A DNA stretch of 64,000 bases from Desulfobacteraceae bacterium (GTDB lineage Bacteria > Desulfobacterota > Desulfobacteria > Desulfobacterales > Desulfosalsimonadaceae). The stretch spans positions 62,001 to 126,000 of the forward strand of contig QZKW01000030.1 in NCBI GenBank assembly GCA_003599885.1. Reading direction: 5' to 3'. Shown here one piece after another: positions 42,401 through 51,092 of this stretch. A model generated the notes under the pieces. It did not search any database. It was not told the DNA's origin and saw only the letters and a program-made list of their open reading frames with translations. Made by a program: the position numbers and the translations under genes. Each line of letters opens with the position of its first letter. Positions within the stretch are counted from its first letter, which is position 1.

Positions 42401-44719
42401 CTATTTCCCTTTCTTCCCTTCATCCAGAACCTTCCGCACCGTTCTGGCCAGCACTGTCCTGACAATCGGTTTGAAAGCCAGGGCCTTGATGCCGATTTGC
42501 GCCGCCTGTTCATCCGTTATCTTTTTGCTGTGCCCAGTACAAGCAATAATGGGAATATCCGGATCAATTTTTAATAATTCCATGGCCAGTTTGTCGCCGG
42601 TCATCTCCGGCATGGTCATATCCGTAATGATCAAATCGAAATCATCCGGGCTTGAGGCAAACAGCGCCAATGCCTCAACACTGCTGGTCAGCGCGGTCAC
42701 ATGGTATCCCAGACCTTCCAGCATCTGGGTGGAGATTCGGGTAATAGGCAGTTCATCATCCACCAGTAGAATGCGTTCATTTCCGCCCGGCAGCGCTTCC
42801 GCGATATAGCGTTTATCCACCGGAGTCTGCGCCGTTGCCGGAAAGAACAGGGTGAACAGGGTCCCTTTGCCGGCCTCGCTCTCGACGCGGATGTGTCCGC
42901 CACAGCTTTTAACGATGCCGTGGACCATGGCCAGTCCAAGTCCTGTCCCTTCTCCGGGAGGCTTGGTGGTAAAATACGGCTCAAAAATAGAACCCATGAT
43001 TTCCGCCGGGATACCGGATCCTGTATCCGATACCGTCAGTTTGACATATTCACCGGCTTTCAATTCCGGGTCCAACCGGACATGGGATTCATCAAGCTCA
43101 GTCAGACTCAAACCGATTTCTAACTTCCCGCCGGCATCGTCCATGGCATGGGCGGCATTGGTGCACAGGTTCATCAGCACCTGATGAATTCTGACAGGGT
43201 CCGCCATCACCAGGGCGTCACACTCGATATGGGTCACGATATCAATGGTTGCGGGAATAGAAGCTCTTAAGAATTTGGCCGCCTCTTTGACGATTCGTCC
43301 GATCTGTAAAGGCGTGATATTGTCATCTGTCTTCCGGGCAAAGGTCAGAATCTGTTTCACCAGATCTTTTGCCCGGTTCCCGGCTGCAAAAACCTCCTGA
43401 AGATAATTTGCCAGTTCCGTGTCTTTTGAAACGGCATCCAGGGACAGTTCGGTAAACCCTATAATTGAAGATAAAATATTATTGAAATCATGGGCAATGC
43501 CGCCGGCCAGGGTGCCGATGGCTTCCAGTTTTTGCATTTGACGCAGATGCGCATCAAATTCGCGCTTTTCTTTCTCGATTTTCAATCGGCTGCTGATATC
43601 CCGGATCGAGCTGATATTGGTTTTCCGTCCATTGAACGTGAAATAATTGGCAGTAATTTCAACGGGAAAAACAGCGCCGTCCTTTTTCCGATGATAGCGG
43701 ACCGGGATTTCGGTGGCCGCATCCACTTGAATCACACGGATGGTTTTTTCCGTTTCCGCGGACACATCCGTTGCTTTCATCTTTAAAAATTCTTCATGAC
43801 CGTATCCATACAGTCTTGAAGCCGCCTCATTGGCGTCAAGGAGTGCCATTGTTTCCACATCCACCAGAAAGATGGCGTCTGATGCAGATTTAAACAGCAT
43901 GCGGTATTTTTCTTCATTTTCTTTCAAATCATTCTCGGTCTTTTTAAGGACGCTGATATCCGTTGCGACATGAATCACTCTTTCGACCTTCCCGGCGGCA
44001 TCCAGGATCGGTGTGCAGGAAATCAGAAAGTCACCCCCGAATTCTTCAATGACCATTGGGGCCGTCTCCTGGTGTCCGGACCGCAGCAACTTCACCATCG
44101 GACAATCATCCGGCGGCTGGCGGGTTCCATGAACCAGTTCAAAACACTTTTTCCCGATCAGTTCCTCACGGGACAAACCGGTTTTTATAAGCGCGGCATC
44201 GTTGACATCTTCGATGCCATGATGGGGATCAAGTATAAACGTCATCTGGCCGATGGCGTTGAACATGGCGTCCCAGTTCCTCACCGCCTGGGCGCGGCCT
44301 TTTTCGGCGTGATTTTTTTCATTTTTGATGCGGAGTATGGACCGGATGCGCGACAGAAACTCAGCCGTATCAAACGGCCGGGCAATAAACCCGTCCGCCC
44401 CGGCATCGAGCCCTCTGGCCTGATACTCGGGGGTGGTGTTGATGCTGGACATCAGCACCACAAAAATATGTTTCAGCTCCGGATCGGCTTTTATCCGCCG
44501 GCATGCCTCGATGCCATCCATGCCCGGCATGACCACGTCCAGCAGCAGAATATCCGGCATAAACGTTCGGGCCGCTGCAATGGCGTCCGGGCCGGACCGG
44601 GCTTCTTCCACCACATATCCGGCTTTTTTCAGAACCCGGGATACGGCGAACAATTCCCCCGGATCATCATCTGCCACCATCACTTTGTCGGGCCGGAGCA
44701 AATTTTGGGCAGCATTCAT
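42401..44719 (-). CDS. Hybrid histidine kinase: REC-PAS-PAS-HisKA-HATPase-REC
   Basis: This 772-residue soluble kinase starts at ATG after GAGGGGAAA. The ATG overlaps the stop of the preceding regulator (ATGA), so the two are coupled. Domains in order are: receiver (Asp in ILLLDVVMPGMDG), PAS (about 145-265, containing several Cys), PAS (about 275-395), HisKA (GTLAGGIAHDFNN), HATPase (DTGSGI, GTGLGLAMVHG) and a C-terminal receiver (IITDMTMPEMTG). It shares its kinase core with those at 29515 and 32063. The first receiver probably takes phosphate from the kinase at 45357. Confidence 0.9.
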   Translation of the reverse strand: MNAAQNLLRPDKVMVADDDPGELFAVSRVLKKAGYVVEEARSGPDAIAAARTFMPDILLLDVVMPGMDGIEACRRIKADPELKHIFVVLMSSINTTPEYQARGLDAGADGFIARPFDTAEFLSRIRSILRIKNEKNHAEKGRAQAVRNWDAMFNAIGQMTFILDPHHGIEDVNDAALIKTGLSREELIGKKCFELVHGTRQPPDDCPMVKLLRSGHQETAPMVIEEFGGDFLISCTPILDAAGKVERVIHVATDISVLKKTENDLKENEEKYRMLFKSASDAIFLVDVETMALLDANEAASRLYGYGHEEFLKMKATDVSAETEKTIRVIQVDAATEIPVRYHRKKDGAVFPVEITANYFTFNGRKTNISSIRDISSRLKIEKEKREFDAHLRQMQKLEAIGTLAGGIAHDFNNILSSIIGFTELSLDAVSKDTELANYLQEVFAAGNRAKDLVKQILTFARKTDDNITPLQIGRIVKEAAKFLRASIPATIDIVTHIECDALVMADPVRIHQVLMNLCTNAAHAMDDAGGKLEIGLSLTELDESHVRLDPELKAGEYVKLTVSDTGSGIPAEIMGSIFEPYFTTKPPGEGTGLGLAMVHGIVKSCGGHIRVESEAGKGTLFTLFFPATAQTPVDKRYIAEALPGGNERILLVDDELPITRISTQMLEGLGYHVTALTSSVEALALFASSPDDFDLIITDMTMPEMTGDKLAMELLKIDPDIPIIACTGHSKKITDEQAAQIGIKALAFKPIVRTVLARTVRKVLDEGKKGK

Positions 44720-45354
44720 GGCTGTTTCCCCTCAGTTGGTTCATCATAAATATTTAAATCCGGATAATATATTTTTGCGCAATCCGGGCAGATGCTGTGG
44801 CTGAAATCCACCTCCGAATGATCGCAAATGTAGGATTCGATCTTTTTCCAGTAGCCCTTGTCATCCCGGATGTTTTTGCAATGGGCGCAAATGGGCAGGA
44901 GCCCGCTCAACTGCCTGACCTTTGCCAGCGCGTCTTTGAGTTCGGCGATCAAGCGGTCCCGCTCCCGCTCGGCCGTCAGAATGCGCACCATGGCCTTTAC
45001 CCGGGCTTTCAGTTCCTGGTTCGATATGGGGCGCACAATATAGCCGTCCGCCCCGATATCCAGGCCTTCGGCCTGTTCAATGGAAGAGATTTTTAAACCC
45101 GAAAGCAGAACGATGTAAATTCCGGCCAATTCCGGATCAGACTTGATTTCCCTGCACAAATCAGACCCATCCCGGTCCGGCAGCACCACATCCAGCAGGA
45201 TCAGATCCGGACGGGTTTCTTTGATCATCGCCAGGCACTGGGCCGCAGACCCCGCTTTCAGCACCTGGTATCCTTCGGCGCCAAGCACCCGTGATGCGGC
45301 AAACAGCGCGTCCGGGTCATCATCCACTATCAAAATTTTCATATCCTGATTCAA
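44716..45354 (-). CDS. Response regulator with Cys4 tail
   Basis: I choose the TTG at 45354, six bases after AAGGAGAT; an ATG at 45342 lacks a good site. The start is two bases after the kinase stop, so the kinase and this regulator are coupled. The receiver has its Asp in LILLDVVLPDRDG. A helical linker leads to a C-terminal segment with CAHC and CPDC pairs about 30 residues apart (GYWKKIESYICDH between), a likely zinc ribbon. This tail is common in Desulfobacterota regulators but its role is not known to me. No DNA-binding domain is present. Confidence 0.85.
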   Translation of the reverse strand: MNQDMKILIVDDDPDALFAASRVLGAEGYQVLKAGSAAQCLAMIKETRPDLILLDVVLPDRDGSDLCREIKSDPELAGIYIVLLSGLKISSIEQAEGLDIGADGYIVRPISNQELKARVKAMVRILTAERERDRLIAELKDALAKVRQLSGLLPICAHCKNIRDDKGYWKKIESYICDHSEVDFSHSICPDCAKIYYPDLNIYDEPTEGKQP

Positions 45355-45356
45355 TT

Positions 45357-46478
45357 TTATCTCCTTTGATGGGGAAGTATAAACGATACGGTGGCGCCCT
45401 CCCCCGGCGGGCTGTCCACCCATATGCGGCCGCCGTGGGATTCGATGATTTTCCGGGTGATCAGCATGCCGAGTCCCGTGCTTTTTTCACCGCCGGTTTT
45501 TTTGGCGCTGGTTTTTTCGAATGGTTTGAACAGCTTGTCCATCTCTTCGGGGGCAATCCCCGGCCCCTGGTCCTGTACCGAAAACAAAATCGCCTCGTTA
45601 TCGCAAGACAGGCGGATGAAGACAGCCGTTCCCGGCCGGGTATGCTCGATGGCGTTTGAAACCAGGTTCGTGATGACCTGTTCGATCTTGGATGCGTCCA
45701 AAAAAGCGCGGGGGATATCCTCCTGGGCCTGGACTTCCAGCGAAATCCCTTTTTTAACCGACTGAAGATGATTCAGTGTCAGGCTTTGTTCCAGGACGTC
45801 CATAATTTCGGTTGGCTGCAAATCCAGATCAAACCGTCCGGCCTCAATGGCGGAGACATCCAGAAAATCATCCACCAGCCGTTTCATAAAGGTGCAGGAA
45901 CTGTTAATGGTGTTTAAAAACCCCTGATGCTCCTTGCCCAAAAGTCCGGCAGCCTCTTCAATGAGAAATTCGGAATAGGCGATAATCAGCCCGATGGGTT
46001 TTCGCAAATCATGGGCCGCCATGCCCAGAAACTGGTTTTTTTCCTGATTGAGCCGCGAAAGTTGCGCGTTTTTCTGATGAAGCTGCCGCATCAGGTTATT
46101 CAGTTCCTGGTTTAAGGACACCACTTCCTTGCGCATGGCTTCAATTTCCTGGGTATCGAGACGGCCAAAAACCAGAATATAATCAGAAACCGGCTTAAAG
46201 GAAAAATAAAAACTCTGGGGCAAGCCGGACCGGGTGTGGATGTGGAACAGACGTTCCGGGCCGGAAGCCTCTGAAAATGCTGATATATCCAATTCCCCTG
46301 TAAAATTAACAATCAGATTCTGAAATTGTTCCCCGGCTAAAGGACGACCGGCCAAGGCTGTGGCATGGGCGTTTGCCTCAAGAATGACGCCGCTGGGTGA
46401 AAGCTTAAAAAACAAAACCGGGGCTTTTTCATCAAAATAGGCGCAAACTTCATGAAGAACTGCGGCATCGGCAGCCAT
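45357..46478 (-). CDS. PAS-type histidine kinase
   Basis: The ATG at 46478 follows AGGAGATG; a longer frame overlaps a REP-like element and is unlikely. The 373-residue protein has a short PAS-like N-terminal domain (about 15-110), a coiled coil, HisKA with GMAAHDLRKPIGLIIAYSEF, and HATPase motifs NLVSNAIEH, DQGPGI and GLGMLITRKI. There is no membrane segment, so it senses a cytoplasmic cue or a partner protein. The likely inputs are the heme-oxygenase-like and cobalamin proteins encoded just upstream. The regulator encoded two bases downstream is its partner. Confidence 0.9.
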   Translation of the reverse strand: MAADAAVLHEVCAYFDEKAPVLFFKLSPSGVILEANAHATALAGRPLAGEQFQNLIVNFTGELDISAFSEASGPERLFHIHTRSGLPQSFYFSFKPVSDYILVFGRLDTQEIEAMRKEVVSLNQELNNLMRQLHQKNAQLSRLNQEKNQFLGMAAHDLRKPIGLIIAYSEFLIEEAAGLLGKEHQGFLNTINSSCTFMKRLVDDFLDVSAIEAGRFDLDLQPTEIMDVLEQSLTLNHLQSVKKGISLEVQAQEDIPRAFLDASKIEQVITNLVSNAIEHTRPGTAVFIRLSCDNEAILFSVQDQGPGIAPEEMDKLFKPFEKTSAKKTGGEKSTGLGMLITRKIIESHGGRIWVDSPPGEGATVSFILPHQRR

Positions 46479-46515
46479 GTCACATCTCCTGAACCCAGAC
46501 TGGATCATCCTTTGG

Positions 46516-46622: not shown

Positions 46623-47255
46623 TCAAAGCCGGATCATTTTTTCAAGCGCGTCCAGTGAAGAAACATAATCGGCGCCGGGATAGGATTTGATCATGTCAAT
46701 GCCTCCCCACCGGAAAGCCTGGCCTCCTATAAGAAGGTCCATGTTCGGAAAATCAGCCCGGATCACTTCAATACCGTGCTTCAACTGATCGATGTTGGAC
46801 AGAATCGCTAAAGAAAGCCCCACCACGTCCGGTTTAATTTCCTGAATATATTGGACCATATCTTCAGCAGGGGCATTCGCGCCGATAAAATGCCCGTCCC
46901 AGCCATTGAGTTCAAAAATATCGGCCACCATTTTTCCGCCGACCTGATGATACTCGTTGGGACTGCATGAGATAAGCGCTTTCCGGGACTTGCGGGGGAC
47001 GGCGAAAACCAGCGGATAGGATAAATTCAGCAGGCTTTCAGTGATGGAGGTGGCCAGGTGTTCATTGGCGACCGTAATCCGGTTGTTTTCCCACAGCTCA
47101 CCGACTTGGTACATGCTGCGCTGGAAAAGATCGCCGTAAAGGGCCTTGATGTCAATGTTGGCGTCGACCAGATTCTGAACCGTCTCATGACATTCAGGCC
47201 GCCGGCCGGCCAGAAGCGCGTTAAAATACCGCTGGTAAAGGCTTTCTTCAATCAT
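46623..47255 (-). CDS. CarH-type cobalamin-binding protein, no DNA-binding domain
   Basis: The ATG at 47255 follows AGGAGG and overlaps the stop of the upstream gene. The 210-residue protein has a helical cap with W55-x9-E65-H66 (WENNRITVANEH). This is the motif that contacts adenosylcobalamin in CarH/LitR photoreceptors. A B12-binding Rossmann domain follows, with EYHQVGG; H103 is the expected lower cobalt ligand. The family normally carries a MerR helix-turn-helix, which is absent, so signal must pass to a partner. AerR-type cobalamin antirepressors share this plan. The partner is likely the coupled heme-oxygenase-like protein or the kinase downstream. Confidence 0.9.
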   Translation of the reverse strand: MIEESLYQRYFNALLAGRRPECHETVQNLVDANIDIKALYGDLFQRSMYQVGELWENNRITVANEHLATSITESLLNLSYPLVFAVPRKSRKALISCSPNEYHQVGGKMVADIFELNGWDGHFIGANAPAEDMVQYIQEIKPDVVGLSLAILSNIDQLKHGIEVIRADFPNMDLLIGGQAFRWGGIDMIKSYPGADYVSSLDALEKMIRL

Positions 47256-48526
47256 GATCCGGCCTCCTGTCTCGCTTTTTGGATGATGCGGTTGGCTGCG
47301 GCAATCCATTGATCCGGAAAGCGGGCAGGGTCCATCAGCCAATTCTTCAATGCAGCCACAGCGCCGAGGGTCCCGTTTTTTTCATCGGCAACAGCAGCAA
47401 CCATTAATTTCCCGGCGTTTTGAAACGTTTTGACCAAATCCGCCCCGGCTGTCCGGTCAAATTCATCCACCAGTTTCCCGGTGATCATTTCCGGAAGGGC
47501 GTTTTCCCTTGCCGCCGCCAGGATATCGGCTGATTGTAAAAGTTTTTCATAATTTTTCCCATTTTCGGGTACCACACGCACCAGTTCCTCATACAGGATT
47601 CGCAATGTCTGCTCCAGCATCAGGGTCGGCATGCCACGGGTTGCAAGGACCCGGCCGATCCAGTCAATCTGCTGTTGCATGGCCTCCGGATCAAGATGAG
47701 TCAAAGTGACCAGCCAGCAGGCGTCGCTGTCTGAAAACCGCTTGCCCCGCTCTCCGAAGCGCTGCTCATAATAAGGGAATGAAGCCCAGGCACGGCTGCT
47801 GGCCAAAAGCGCGGCTTCAATCTCCCGCGCATCTTCAGGCATTGGATGGTTTCCGGCTTCGGGATTGATCTGGGCCACATGAACAGATTTTTGTTTTTTG
47901 GATAAAGGATACAAGGCGTTATAAAGTTTTTCCAATCCGGAAAACGCTTCATGAGCAGCTTCAATAAGAGCGTCATGCACTGAAGAATCATCCAAAGCAC
48001 GATTCATTTTTTCCATAAACCGTTGCCAACTGTTTTGGACCTGGTCCCGGTAACTGGCATAATACCGGCAGCCCTCAAGGTTATTTAAGTGAAATGTTGC
48101 CGAAATATCCGGCCGATGCATGCTGTTGCCCAGGGTCGAGCCCTCGAAGACATAGAGATAGCCCAGGAGCGTGACCGGGTTTTCCGCCTGCCGGAGCCTG
48201 ATTTTCCCGGCCATGGCAAGGGCCGCATCAATGGATGTGGCGGCGGCCGGCGCAACCCGATGCGCAAAAAACGCCAGATCCTGTTCCAGAAGCGGGGACT
48301 TTTTCAATCCGTCATCCCATACAGCCAGCACCCGCTCATCGGTTGAGGCGGCAATCGCGGTTTCCATCACGCCGTGGACGACAGCCAGCGCCCTGAGCTG
48401 GCTCACATAGCATTCCAGCGGCAGGGTGTGATGGATCAGCGCCCCAAAATAAGGCAATGATTCCAGCTTGGAATGGTATTCTTTTGTCTCTTCCCTCAGC
48501 CTGTCCATAATTCTTTTTGGAATCAT
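47252..48526 (-). CDS. Heme-oxygenase-like protein with extra all-helical domain
   Basis: The ATG at 48526 follows CAGGAGG. Residues 1 to about 195 match bacterial biliverdin-producing heme oxygenases. The proximal heme His is in LREETKEYHSKLE (H18), and the distal helix has LYVFEGSTLG, the BphO form. Residues about 215-424 form a second helical domain (FPYYEQRFGERGKRFSDSDA, RVLATRGMPTLMLEQTLRIL) that I recall from uncharacterised bacterial proteins. The enzyme would cleave heme with oxygen to biliverdin, iron and CO. In an anaerobe it could instead act as a heme or bilin sensor. It is coupled to the cobalamin protein and heads the signalling run. Confidence 0.85.
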   Translation of the reverse strand: MIPKRIMDRLREETKEYHSKLESLPYFGALIHHTLPLECYVSQLRALAVVHGVMETAIAASTDERVLAVWDDGLKKSPLLEQDLAFFAHRVAPAAATSIDAALAMAGKIRLRQAENPVTLLGYLYVFEGSTLGNSMHRPDISATFHLNNLEGCRYYASYRDQVQNSWQRFMEKMNRALDDSSVHDALIEAAHEAFSGLEKLYNALYPLSKKQKSVHVAQINPEAGNHPMPEDAREIEAALLASSRAWASFPYYEQRFGERGKRFSDSDACWLVTLTHLDPEAMQQQIDWIGRVLATRGMPTLMLEQTLRILYEELVRVVPENGKNYEKLLQSADILAAARENALPEMITGKLVDEFDRTAGADLVKTFQNAGKLMVAAVADEKNGTLGAVAALKNWLMDPARFPDQWIAAANRIIQKARQEAGS

Positions 48527-48632: not shown

Positions 48633-49511
48633 TTATAACCCCCGCAACCGTTCGGACCGTAGCGCGCCCTTGTCCCGTGTTTCCAGAACCGTATTCACTG
48701 CGGCCAGCATTTTTTCCTTGTCCCTCTGGAGGGTGCCGCTGACCGGCAGGTAATTGGAGGCATGGACCCCGACAAATTTCAGATTGTCGATGGTGATGTG
48801 TTCAAACATCAGCTTCATTTCCTCAAGGGTTTCAAAGGGATCGGGCAGCTCAAATTCCCCTTTTTGCACCTTGTGGAACAATACCGTGCCCGGCACCGGG
48901 GTGGTGGTCAGGGCCGCCAGATATTGGGGTTTCATCTGATTGGTGATTTCCGCTGTTGCAATGGCGTGTTCTCTGGCGCGCGCTCCTTTGCCTGCGATTC
49001 CCAGAAGCACCATGGATGACAGATTGATGTTGGCGTTCACCAGATTTTGCCCGGCCTGGAGCATCTCGGCGGCGGTCACCCCTTTTTTGATTTCCTTAAG
49101 CAGCCGGTCATCACCGGTTTCAACGCCCAAATAGGCTTTGGTCAGCCCTGCGGCGCGCAAAGCGCTCAGTTCAGGCATGGATTTCGACAGGGTGCTCTGC
49201 GGCCCCACATAGGTGCCCACATGCCGCAGGGACGGAAATATCCGGTACAATTCATCTAAAATCTCCAGCAGGATGGCGGTTTCCATGGCCACCGCGTCCC
49301 CGTCGCACAAAAACACTTTTTCCAGGTCCCCGTAATGGGCTTTGGCCATCCGGATATCTTCTTTTATTTCCGCAAGAGAGCGGACCCGGTATTTCCGGTC
49401 CTTGTACATGCCGCAAAACGTGCACTGGTTGTGGGAACACCCGATGGTGCACTGAAGCAGATAACTGTTCGCCTCGGAAAATGGCCTGAAAATCTGTCCT
49501 TCGTATCTCAT
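48633..49511 (-). CDS. Radical SAM protein
   Basis: This 292-residue enzyme has a cluster motif CSHNQCTFC, giving CX4CX2C rather than the common CX3CX2C. That spacing is normal for this group, where TIGCSHNQCTFCGM is typical. A TIM-barrel core follows (VFLCDGDAVAME, LTKAYLGVETGDDRLLKEIKKG), then a C-terminal ASNYLPVSGTLQRDKEK. It would reduce SAM to a 5'-deoxyadenosyl radical; the substrate is unknown. The group is often near B12 or tetrapyrrole genes, and here it sits 106 bases before the heme-oxygenase-like gene. Confidence 0.85.
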   Translation of the reverse strand: MRYEGQIFRPFSEANSYLLQCTIGCSHNQCTFCGMYKDRKYRVRSLAEIKEDIRMAKAHYGDLEKVFLCDGDAVAMETAILLEILDELYRIFPSLRHVGTYVGPQSTLSKSMPELSALRAAGLTKAYLGVETGDDRLLKEIKKGVTAAEMLQAGQNLVNANINLSSMVLLGIAGKGARAREHAIATAEITNQMKPQYLAALTTTPVPGTVLFHKVQKGEFELPDPFETLEEMKLMFEHITIDNLKFVGVHASNYLPVSGTLQRDKEKMLAAVNTVLETRDKGALRSERLRGL

Positions 49512-50342: not shown

Positions 50343-51092
50343 CTATTTTTTCCGGGGATCTTTTAAATACACCGACTTTGAAGGGCCGTCACCCACAGCC
50401 CGTTCCTCAATCTGGAAGAGCTTGGTTGCCGCCACCAGCCCGCCCAGTTTTTTGTATCCGTAATTTCTGGGATCAAACTCCGGTGACTGTTTGGCGATGT
50501 TATTGCCCACGGCGGCCAAGTGGGCCCAGCCGCTGTCGTCGGAAGATGCTTCCACCGCATTCCGCAGCAAACTCACAAGCTTGGTGTCCCGTTTCAGGTC
50601 AGAAGGCGTTTTCCGATGGATCTTTTCCGCATCTTCGTCATCATCGTCCTTGAACCGGAGAACTTCAGTAAAAATAAACTTATCGCAAGCCGACACAAAC
50701 GGTTCCGGCGTTTTTTTCTCGCCGAACCCGTACACAAAAAGACCGGCTTCCCTGATCCGTGAGGCCAGCTTGGTGAAATCACTGTCGCTGGATACAATGC
50801 AGAACCCGTCAAACTTGCCGGTGTACAGCAGGTCCATGGCATCAATAATCATGGCGCTGTCAGTGGCGTTTTTTCCGGTGGTATACCCGAATTGCTGGAT
50901 GGGCTGAATGGAATAGCGCAGCAACACCTCTTTCCAGCCTTTCAGGCCCGGCGCCGTCCAGTCGCCGTATATGCGTTTGACATTGGCGGTCCCGTATTTG
51001 GCGATTTCCGCCAAAAGCCCTTCCACAATGGAGGGTTGCGCGTTGTCCGCATCAATGAGCACCGCCAGTTTTTCCGTTTTTCCGTCTGTCAT
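50343..51092 (-). CDS. NYN-domain putative RNase with C-terminal LOTUS/OST-HTH
   Basis: This 249-residue protein has an NYN (PIN-like) domain with acidic metal-binding residues in LIDADNAQPS, GKNATDSAMIIDAMDLL and SSDSDF. These are the catalytic Asp positions of the LabA/DUF88 group. A charged linker then leads to an OST-HTH/LOTUS RNA-binding domain (VSLLRNAVEAS...GWAHLAAVGNNI...NYGYKKLGGLV). Such proteins are thought to cut or bind structured RNA. The target is unknown. A 53-residue gene lies 91 bases upstream on the same strand. Confidence 0.9.
   Translation of the reverse strand: MTDGKTEKLAVLIDADNAQPSIVEGLLAEIAKYGTANVKRIYGDWTAPGLKGWKEVLLRYSIQPIQQFGYTTGKNATDSAMIIDAMDLLYTGKFDGFCIVSSDSDFTKLASRIREAGLFVYGFGEKKTPEPFVSACDKFIFTEVLRFKDDDDEDAEKIHRKTPSDLKRDTKLVSLLRNAVEASSDDSGWAHLAAVGNNIAKQSPEFDPRNYGYKKLGGLVAATKLFQIEERAVGDGPSKSVYLKDPRKK

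Follow-up and report, generated by a model that had tools for sequence, protein, structure and literature searches.

Photoglobin, reportedly a globin connected to B12 and signalling domains, is said to have been described by Schneider and colleagues in 2022. The closest described systems are the photocobilins, two of which, the fused proteins SasPcob and AbDPcob, were characterised in 2024 (Zhang et al., PMC10979010), their hosts being Saccharothrix and an Acidimicrobiaceae bacterium. That paper describes the photocobilin globins as having no covalent Cys; the word 'oxygenase' is absent from its main text. The BBAG-2 globins (Rockwell et al. 2023, PMC10151467) are presented, in the accessible sections of that report, as binding biliverdin without a CXRD motif and as encoded by separate genes that cluster with the bilin reductase pre-2, the heme oxygenase lying in the cluster for some of them and elsewhere in the genome for others.

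In a 64,000-nucleotide stretch of a Desulfobacteraceae genome (hereafter the window), comparable parts are distributed over two genes of the minus strand. P0002 (47252..48526, 424 aa), which we call an HO-globin, is read here as a heme oxygenase (HO) followed by a bilin-type globin and a helical tail, and P0001 (46623..47255, 210 aa) is a standalone cobalamin-binding protein. Like the photocobilins, the locus has a CarH-like cobalamin domain and a bilin globin of five helices, which carries a Trp and the putative biliverdin-contact Asp but no covalent Cys; unlike the photocobilins, which are one chain, it keeps the cobalamin domain separate, places the globin behind a heme oxygenase and has a separate kinase as output. 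Since a single polypeptide with B12 domain and globin, found in the relatives L022, L024, L040, L042 and L043, is missing in P0001/P0002, we did not file the pair as a photocobilin. With the BBAG-2/pre-2 systems, as described there, the locus shares the separation of globin and B12-binding protein, the associated heme oxygenase and the absence of a CXRD Cys, but P0002 joins heme oxygenase and globin, no bilin reductase was found and the cluster contains two-component genes. A globin linked with B12 and signalling domains is also the likeness to Photoglobin, as the latter is cited in PMC10979010. A limited literature search, with photoglobin architectures outside its range, returned no fusion of a heme oxygenase with a bilin globin in the texts covered. 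What appears to be new here, judged from the sequences, is that the parts of a photocobilin are split, that biliverdin synthesis is built into the globin protein and that both precede a two-component system. We know of no earlier photoreceptor with its own chromophore-making enzyme in the same chain. Should the pair act in the way proposed here, it would show how a bilin antenna joined a B12 sensor, would explain the presence of heme oxygenase in relatives of the Desulfobacteraceae and would provide a two-part photoreceptor requiring heme and B12 only.

Domains and ligand residues of P0002 and P0001

The coupling of the two genes by ATGA, proposed in the preliminary description of this DNA, was borne out: their stop and start overlap by 4 bases (47252..47255), which read ATGA on the minus strand, and AGGAGG precedes, on the coding strand, the starts of both P0002 (48536-48541) and P0001 (47263-47268). 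An Rfam scan of the window gave no match at the gathering score and, therefore, no cobalamin riboswitch was found.

The heme oxygenase domain occupies aa 7-197 of P0002 (47936..48508, minus strand; PF01126, 70.7 bits, cut-off 23). It was the only Pfam assignment obtained for the protein, PF00502 (phycobiliprotein, Pfam Phycobilisome) not being reported, and no NCBIfam family was matched. The first 210 residues of a second AlphaFold2 model (15 sequences, mean pLDDT 91.5, pTM 0.86) matched rat HO-1 (1dvg, Z 27.2, 2.2 Å over 206 residues) and Synechocystis HO-1 (1we1, Z 26.3), the fold match spanning aa 3-210; the hit lists of this second model were dominated by heme oxygenases and support the HO fold, not globin Z-scores. 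The proximal His18 (48473-48475, minus strand) aligns with the His of Synechocystis HO-1, which we take to be the proximal heme ligand of that enzyme. The proximal His and the distal-helix motif, recognised before from the letters alone, were both found to be invariant (His18 and G129-x-T-L-G133) in the 13 homologues: within the motif, GSTLG at aa 129-133 in P0002, G129, T131 and G133 did not vary in any of the 13 HO-globins and S130 was kept in 11. These results indicated that the N-terminal part of P0002 is a heme oxygenase in which the ligand residues are retained and for which turnover of heme to biliverdin is predicted. The HO fold, the proximal His and the GSTLG distal helix are presumably what makes P0002 resemble the BphO-type heme oxygenases, from which it differs in its extra globin domain and in that no phytochrome (PHY) match was found in the source genome (98.8% complete). 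A role as phytochrome helper was rejected on the latter ground, and one as first step to a reduced bilin because the source genome gave no bilin reductase (PF05996) match either. With a single heme oxygenase, no PHY and no bilin reductase found in that genome, the product would therefore be biliverdin.

The extra domain of 200 residues noted behind the heme oxygenase is present, but the designation 'unknown helical domain' for aa 206-424 was rejected, since profile and fold comparisons assign it to a bilin-type globin and a tail. A profile of the P0002 C-terminal part made from six sequences (A1) matched allophycocyanin gamma (E 0.0087), smURFP (0.032) and the photocobilin 8j2y (0.047), and one made from ten sequences (A5) gave E-values from 4e-7 to 3e-6 for allophycocyanin gamma, ApcD and smURFP, and of 0.0024 and 0.027 for the photocobilins 8j2y and 8j2w, respectively. 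Residues 227-343 resembled phycobilisome 9wg7 (Z 12.3), smURFP (Z 12.1) and photocobilin 8j2w (Z 12.3, 22% identity, 2.6 Å over 111 residues), against Z 6.2 or less for heme globins, in Z-scores that derive only from the first AlphaFold2 model, one of mixed confidence (5 sequences, mean pLDDT 60, HO part poor; block pLDDT 39 for residues 221-230 and 60-94 from residue 231 on). Foldseek with this first model returned nothing under E 0.001, SasPcob being the top match at E 0.44. From the profile and fold matches we therefore read P0002 as a heme oxygenase, a bilin-type globin (aa 227-343, 47498..47848, minus strand) and an 80-residue helical tail (aa 344-424, 47255..47497, minus strand; helices between 346 and 423 in the second model). 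Asp268 (47723-47725, minus strand), the putative bilin-binding residue on sequence grounds, and Trp289 (47660-47662, minus strand), also in the globin domain, were invariant in all 13 HO-globins, that is, the source protein and 12 others, and in the same 13 proteins the covalent-attachment Cys was replaced by Ser265. Profile alignments placed Asp268 opposite the RD-motif Asp of phycobiliproteins, and we infer that it is the equivalent of Asp270 of SasPcob. The spacing between Asp and Trp is 21 in the HO-globins versus 26 in the fused relatives and in SasPcob, whose residues are Asp270 and Trp296 according to PMC10979010.

P0001 contained the Pfam domains PF02607 and PF02310 only, in agreement with the earlier statement that it has no DNA-binding domain. 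Its nearest solved structures were the photocobilins 8j2w/8j2x (E 1e-18 with the single sequence, 8e-23 with a profile), the CarH structure trailing at 2.6e-6, and the CarH model NF052513 scored 52.8 bits, under its cut-off of 400; the N-terminal DNA-binding domain of CarH is absent from P0001. The protein is like CarH in the cobalamin domain, the W-x9-EH motif and the His below the cobalt, and it carries the W-x-EH and E/DxH motifs of a CarH-like B12 domain; unlike CarH, lacking a DNA-binding domain, it would signal through a kinase. The CarH-type residues W55, E65, H66 and H103 had been correctly identified: together with E101, G125 and P129 they were invariant in the 17 cobalamin domains aligned (11 P0001-type and 6 fused-type). 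In PMC11796333 these W, E, H and H residues are called proven for AdoCbl binding in CarH, and the signature of light-responsive CBDs is given as GxxW, EH, GxxH and GxxxP. P0001 has G52xxW55, E65H66 and G125xxxP129, and GxxH is replaced by N100xxH103; therefore, three of the four motifs of the published light signature are present and the full signature is not. The residue three places before His103 was Asn in 11/11 P0001-type domains and Gly in 6/6 fused-type ones. By homology, then, P0001 is a standalone cobalamin domain of the CarH/photocobilin type.

Two-component neighbours and conservation of the pair

Downstream of P0001, the minus strand encodes a soluble histidine kinase whose N-terminal part is PAS-like (45357..46508; HisKA + HATPase_c), a response regulator that has a Cys-rich tail at its C-terminus (44716..45342; PF00072, an inner ATG being taken as start) and a hybrid histidine kinase (42401..44719; REC-PAS-PAS-HisKA-HATPase-REC). 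The first of them, introduced earlier as a soluble PAS kinase, is indeed a soluble histidine kinase, but Pfam at E 0.01 gave no PAS domain in it and its N-terminal part can be called PAS-like only. The response regulator was about 60% identical in L019, L038 and L052, and the hybrid kinase had a relative in L020 (42% identity). The Cys-rich tail of the response regulator (CAHC...CPDC) has no Pfam name; in 16 of 31 loci relatives of it were encoded no more than 4 kb from a cobalamin gene, and at times it ends a protein that starts with the PAS-like part. Upstream of the pair, a radical SAM gene (48633-49511) had no match in the seven loci compared. Elsewhere in the window, an NYN nuclease with an OST-HTH/LOTUS domain (50343-51092) is unrelated to the finding.

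HO-globins were collected by searching P0002 against 147 genomes of the class and the globin profile against 389 genomes of the order, and by a scan of named genomes. Thirteen distinct loci were obtained, the source's own included, from relatives among which are MAGs named Desulfobacteraceae, Desulfobacterales, Thermodesulfobacteriota, Desulfopila aestuarii, Caldithrix and 'bacterium', and also Desulfogranum marinum DSM 2058 (L047), which carries the HO-globin, cobalamin and kinase genes alike. Excluded from the counts were L046 and L048 (contigs the same as L038 and L039), L021 (a heme oxygenase without globin) and the HO fragments L015/L024 and L016/L023, while L039 was counted as an HO-globin but left out of the neighbourhood count because its contig ends inside the gene. 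A cobalamin gene lay directly downstream of the HO-globin in 9 of the 12 assessable loci and within 2 kb in 10 of them, at about 1.8 kb and divergent in L020. The cobalamin gene of L050 is on another contig, adjoining its kinase (L054), and in L051 (Caldithrix) none adjoins the HO-globin, a globin-cobalamin fusion being encoded elsewhere (L055). Most HO-globin loci sit among two-component genes, in an annotation by matches to the query set beside which heme-uptake genes outside that set may also adjoin. One Desulfobacteraceae MAG has two HO-globin/cobalamin loci, L044 and L052, in two-component clusters; the cobalamin gene of L052, shortened in frame (170 aa), was counted as present, and the kinase of L044 is a hybrid whose shared portion is mainly the PAS-like part. 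The comparison of gene neighbourhoods thus confirmed the pair as first observed: it is kept outside the source genome together with the kinase, and the objection that it might not be conserved elsewhere fails for this reason.

The identity matrices of the HO-globins and the cobalamin domains were correlated (r 0.83, p 0.0034, 10 loci), a correlation that can be explained by shared descent alone, and each of the two agreed more weakly with the kinase (p 0.06 and 0.07).

A candidate split photocobilin

Taking all analyses together, we consider it probable that P0001 and P0002 form a photocobilin split over two proteins, which would make its own biliverdin and feed a two-component system. The basis of this reading was directly observed, namely the identity of the domains, the conservation of ligand residues and neighbourhood, the alternative fusion described below and the link between heme oxygenase and globin across the order. 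With a heme oxygenase and a bilin globin in one chain, the cell therefore probably produces the second pigment of the light sensor where it is used. In the proposed course of events, heme would be opened with O2 to biliverdin by the heme oxygenase domain of P0002; the biliverdin would pass to the fused globin and be bound there without a covalent link, Asp268 contacting the pyrrole nitrogens and Trp289 lying close by. The globin would dock on P0001 carrying base-off adenosylcobalamin, with His103 below the cobalamin and Trp55, Glu65 and His66 around the adenosyl group. If the pair behaves as SasPcob does, the Co-C bond would be broken when the cobalamin absorbs green light or the biliverdin absorbs red light, and this cleavage would alter the assembly of P0001, a change that the PAS-like part of the soluble kinase may read and relay to the response regulator and the hybrid kinase. 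The sensor of two tetrapyrrole binders put forward in the preliminary description is thereby partly supported: the CarH-like domain and the heme oxygenase ligands stand, but the notion of independent binders does not, as the fusion of heme oxygenase and bilin globin matches a split photocobilin.

Because heme oxygenase needs O2, and biliverdin would be available only once O2 had been present, the red response might be gated by oxygen and occur only where light and oxygen coincide, with the cobalamin half always green-sensitive. We offer such a light-AND-oxygen gate as a possible but rather doubtful extension.

Genome survey and rival readings

Six order-mate loci (L022, L024, L040, L041, L042 and L043) fuse the same globin in front of a cobalamin domain, the fusion of L041 being broken into two frames. 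When five of the fusions were scanned with Pfam Phycobilisome, L040, L024 and L042 passed the cut-off, L022 just missed it and L043 gave no match. In L022 a single-domain heme oxygenase is the separate gene next to the fusion, and L024 has a heme oxygenase fragment at a contig edge. The globin is thus found joined either to a heme oxygenase or to a cobalamin domain, which is the strongest sign that all three cooperate.

Across the 389 order genomes, heme oxygenase was matched in 8 and the bilin globin in 12, all 8 falling within the 12 (hypergeometric 4e-14, uncorrected for relatedness); with the six fused cases dropped and only the two unfused heme oxygenase genes left, the value was 2e-4, likewise uncorrected for relatedness. 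The family search gave no heme oxygenase match in 4 of the 12 globin-bearing genomes (G132, G157, G027 and G120), which are also four of the six fusion genomes and count against a split photocobilin; G120 alone among them has a fragment, at a contig edge.

The cobalamin domain was far more widespread, its profile at E 1e-40 detecting 52 of the 389 genomes (fused forms included), of which 7 had a heme oxygenase match and 45 did not, so that an obligate pair of HO-globin and cobalamin gene was rejected. We fetched 20 cobalamin loci (19 genomes) without an HO-globin neighbour for comparison, and within 4 kb none of them had an HO-globin, L074 alone showing a 41-residue heme oxygenase remnant; 18 of the 19 genomes had no heme oxygenase, and G122 had one beside a separate globin-cobalamin fusion. 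Of 38 genomes checked individually, 8 altogether had a heme oxygenase. The PAS-like kinase part was encoded no more than 4 kb from the cobalamin gene in all 10 loci examined from the HO-globin group (L023, with only a heme oxygenase remnant, among them) and equally close to the cobalamin domain in 15 of the 20 loci without HO-globin, and the HO-globin is therefore not needed for the core module. Heme oxygenase remnants lie directly upstream of intact cobalamin-kinase genes in L023 (7838-8152) and L074 (5069-5191), where the HO-globin gene appears to have been lost while the others stayed. The core thus consists of the cobalamin domain and its PAS-like partner, and the HO-globin is a minority addition, apparently lost again in some loci.

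The rarity of heme oxygenase beside the cobalamin domain and the remnants in L023 and L074 argue against a split photocobilin, as do the absence of an adjacent cobalamin gene in L051 and its location on another contig in L050. A first alternative is that the cobalamin protein and the kinase are the whole sensor and the HO-globin a later, parallel add-on that does not dock on the cobalamin domain and acts as a biliverdin store or as a red-light sensor of its own on the same kinase. The excess of cobalamin domains over globins (52 against 12 of 389), the PAS-like partner retained without HO-globin and the remnants beside intact cobalamin genes all fit such an add-on. We nevertheless find it unlikely, given that the globin is fused directly to a cobalamin domain in the six order-mates and in L055, that the order HO-globin then cobalamin gene recurs in 9 of the 12 assessable loci, and that the globin of SasPcob packs on its cobalamin domain (PMC10979010).

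A second alternative dispenses with light: the pair would sense cobalamin status, heme, O2 or CO, and the kinase would read cofactor occupancy. Heme oxygenases use O2 and heme and make CO, and the source genome encodes a cytochrome bd oxidase. The requirement of heme oxygenase for O2 also counts against the split photocobilin, the named relatives belonging largely to sulfate-reducer groups, yet the cytochrome bd oxidase tempers this objection. A further point for a non-light sensor, and against the split photocobilin, is the NxxH found in 11/11 P0001-type domains where the light signature has GxxH; the Asp-Trp spacing of 21 instead of the 26 of SasPcob likewise speaks against the latter. On the other hand, the W, E, H and H residues regarded in PMC11796333 as proven for AdoCbl binding in CarH are kept in 17/17 domains, and it is not evident what a sensor of cobalamin or CO would do with a bilin-type globin that carries the bilin Asp, and we judge a purely non-light role to be quite improbable. 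That P0002 merely degrades heme for iron or detoxification, its globin collecting the product next to an incidental cobalamin gene, agrees with the intact HO fold and ligands but is very improbable, as every genome found to have a heme oxygenase has the bilin globin as well (8/8, 389 searched) and two-component genes surround most HO-globin loci, even if heme-uptake genes may exist nearby.

In 13 of the 20 loci without HO-globin (L076, L077, L078, L080, L081, L082, L084 and L087-L092), and also in L054, a protein of 150 aa was encoded close to the standalone cobalamin gene. Twelve of these 13 loci belong to genomes without a heme oxygenase match, while G122 (L091) and the genome of L054 have one. 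It had no Pfam family and only a chance-level PDB match, and its comparison with the bilin globin was weak (hhalign probability 64%, 84 columns). The 11 copies aligned share invariant R, G, N, M, DN, N, F and T-x-LWV, and the protein may be a diverged globin with another ligand or none.
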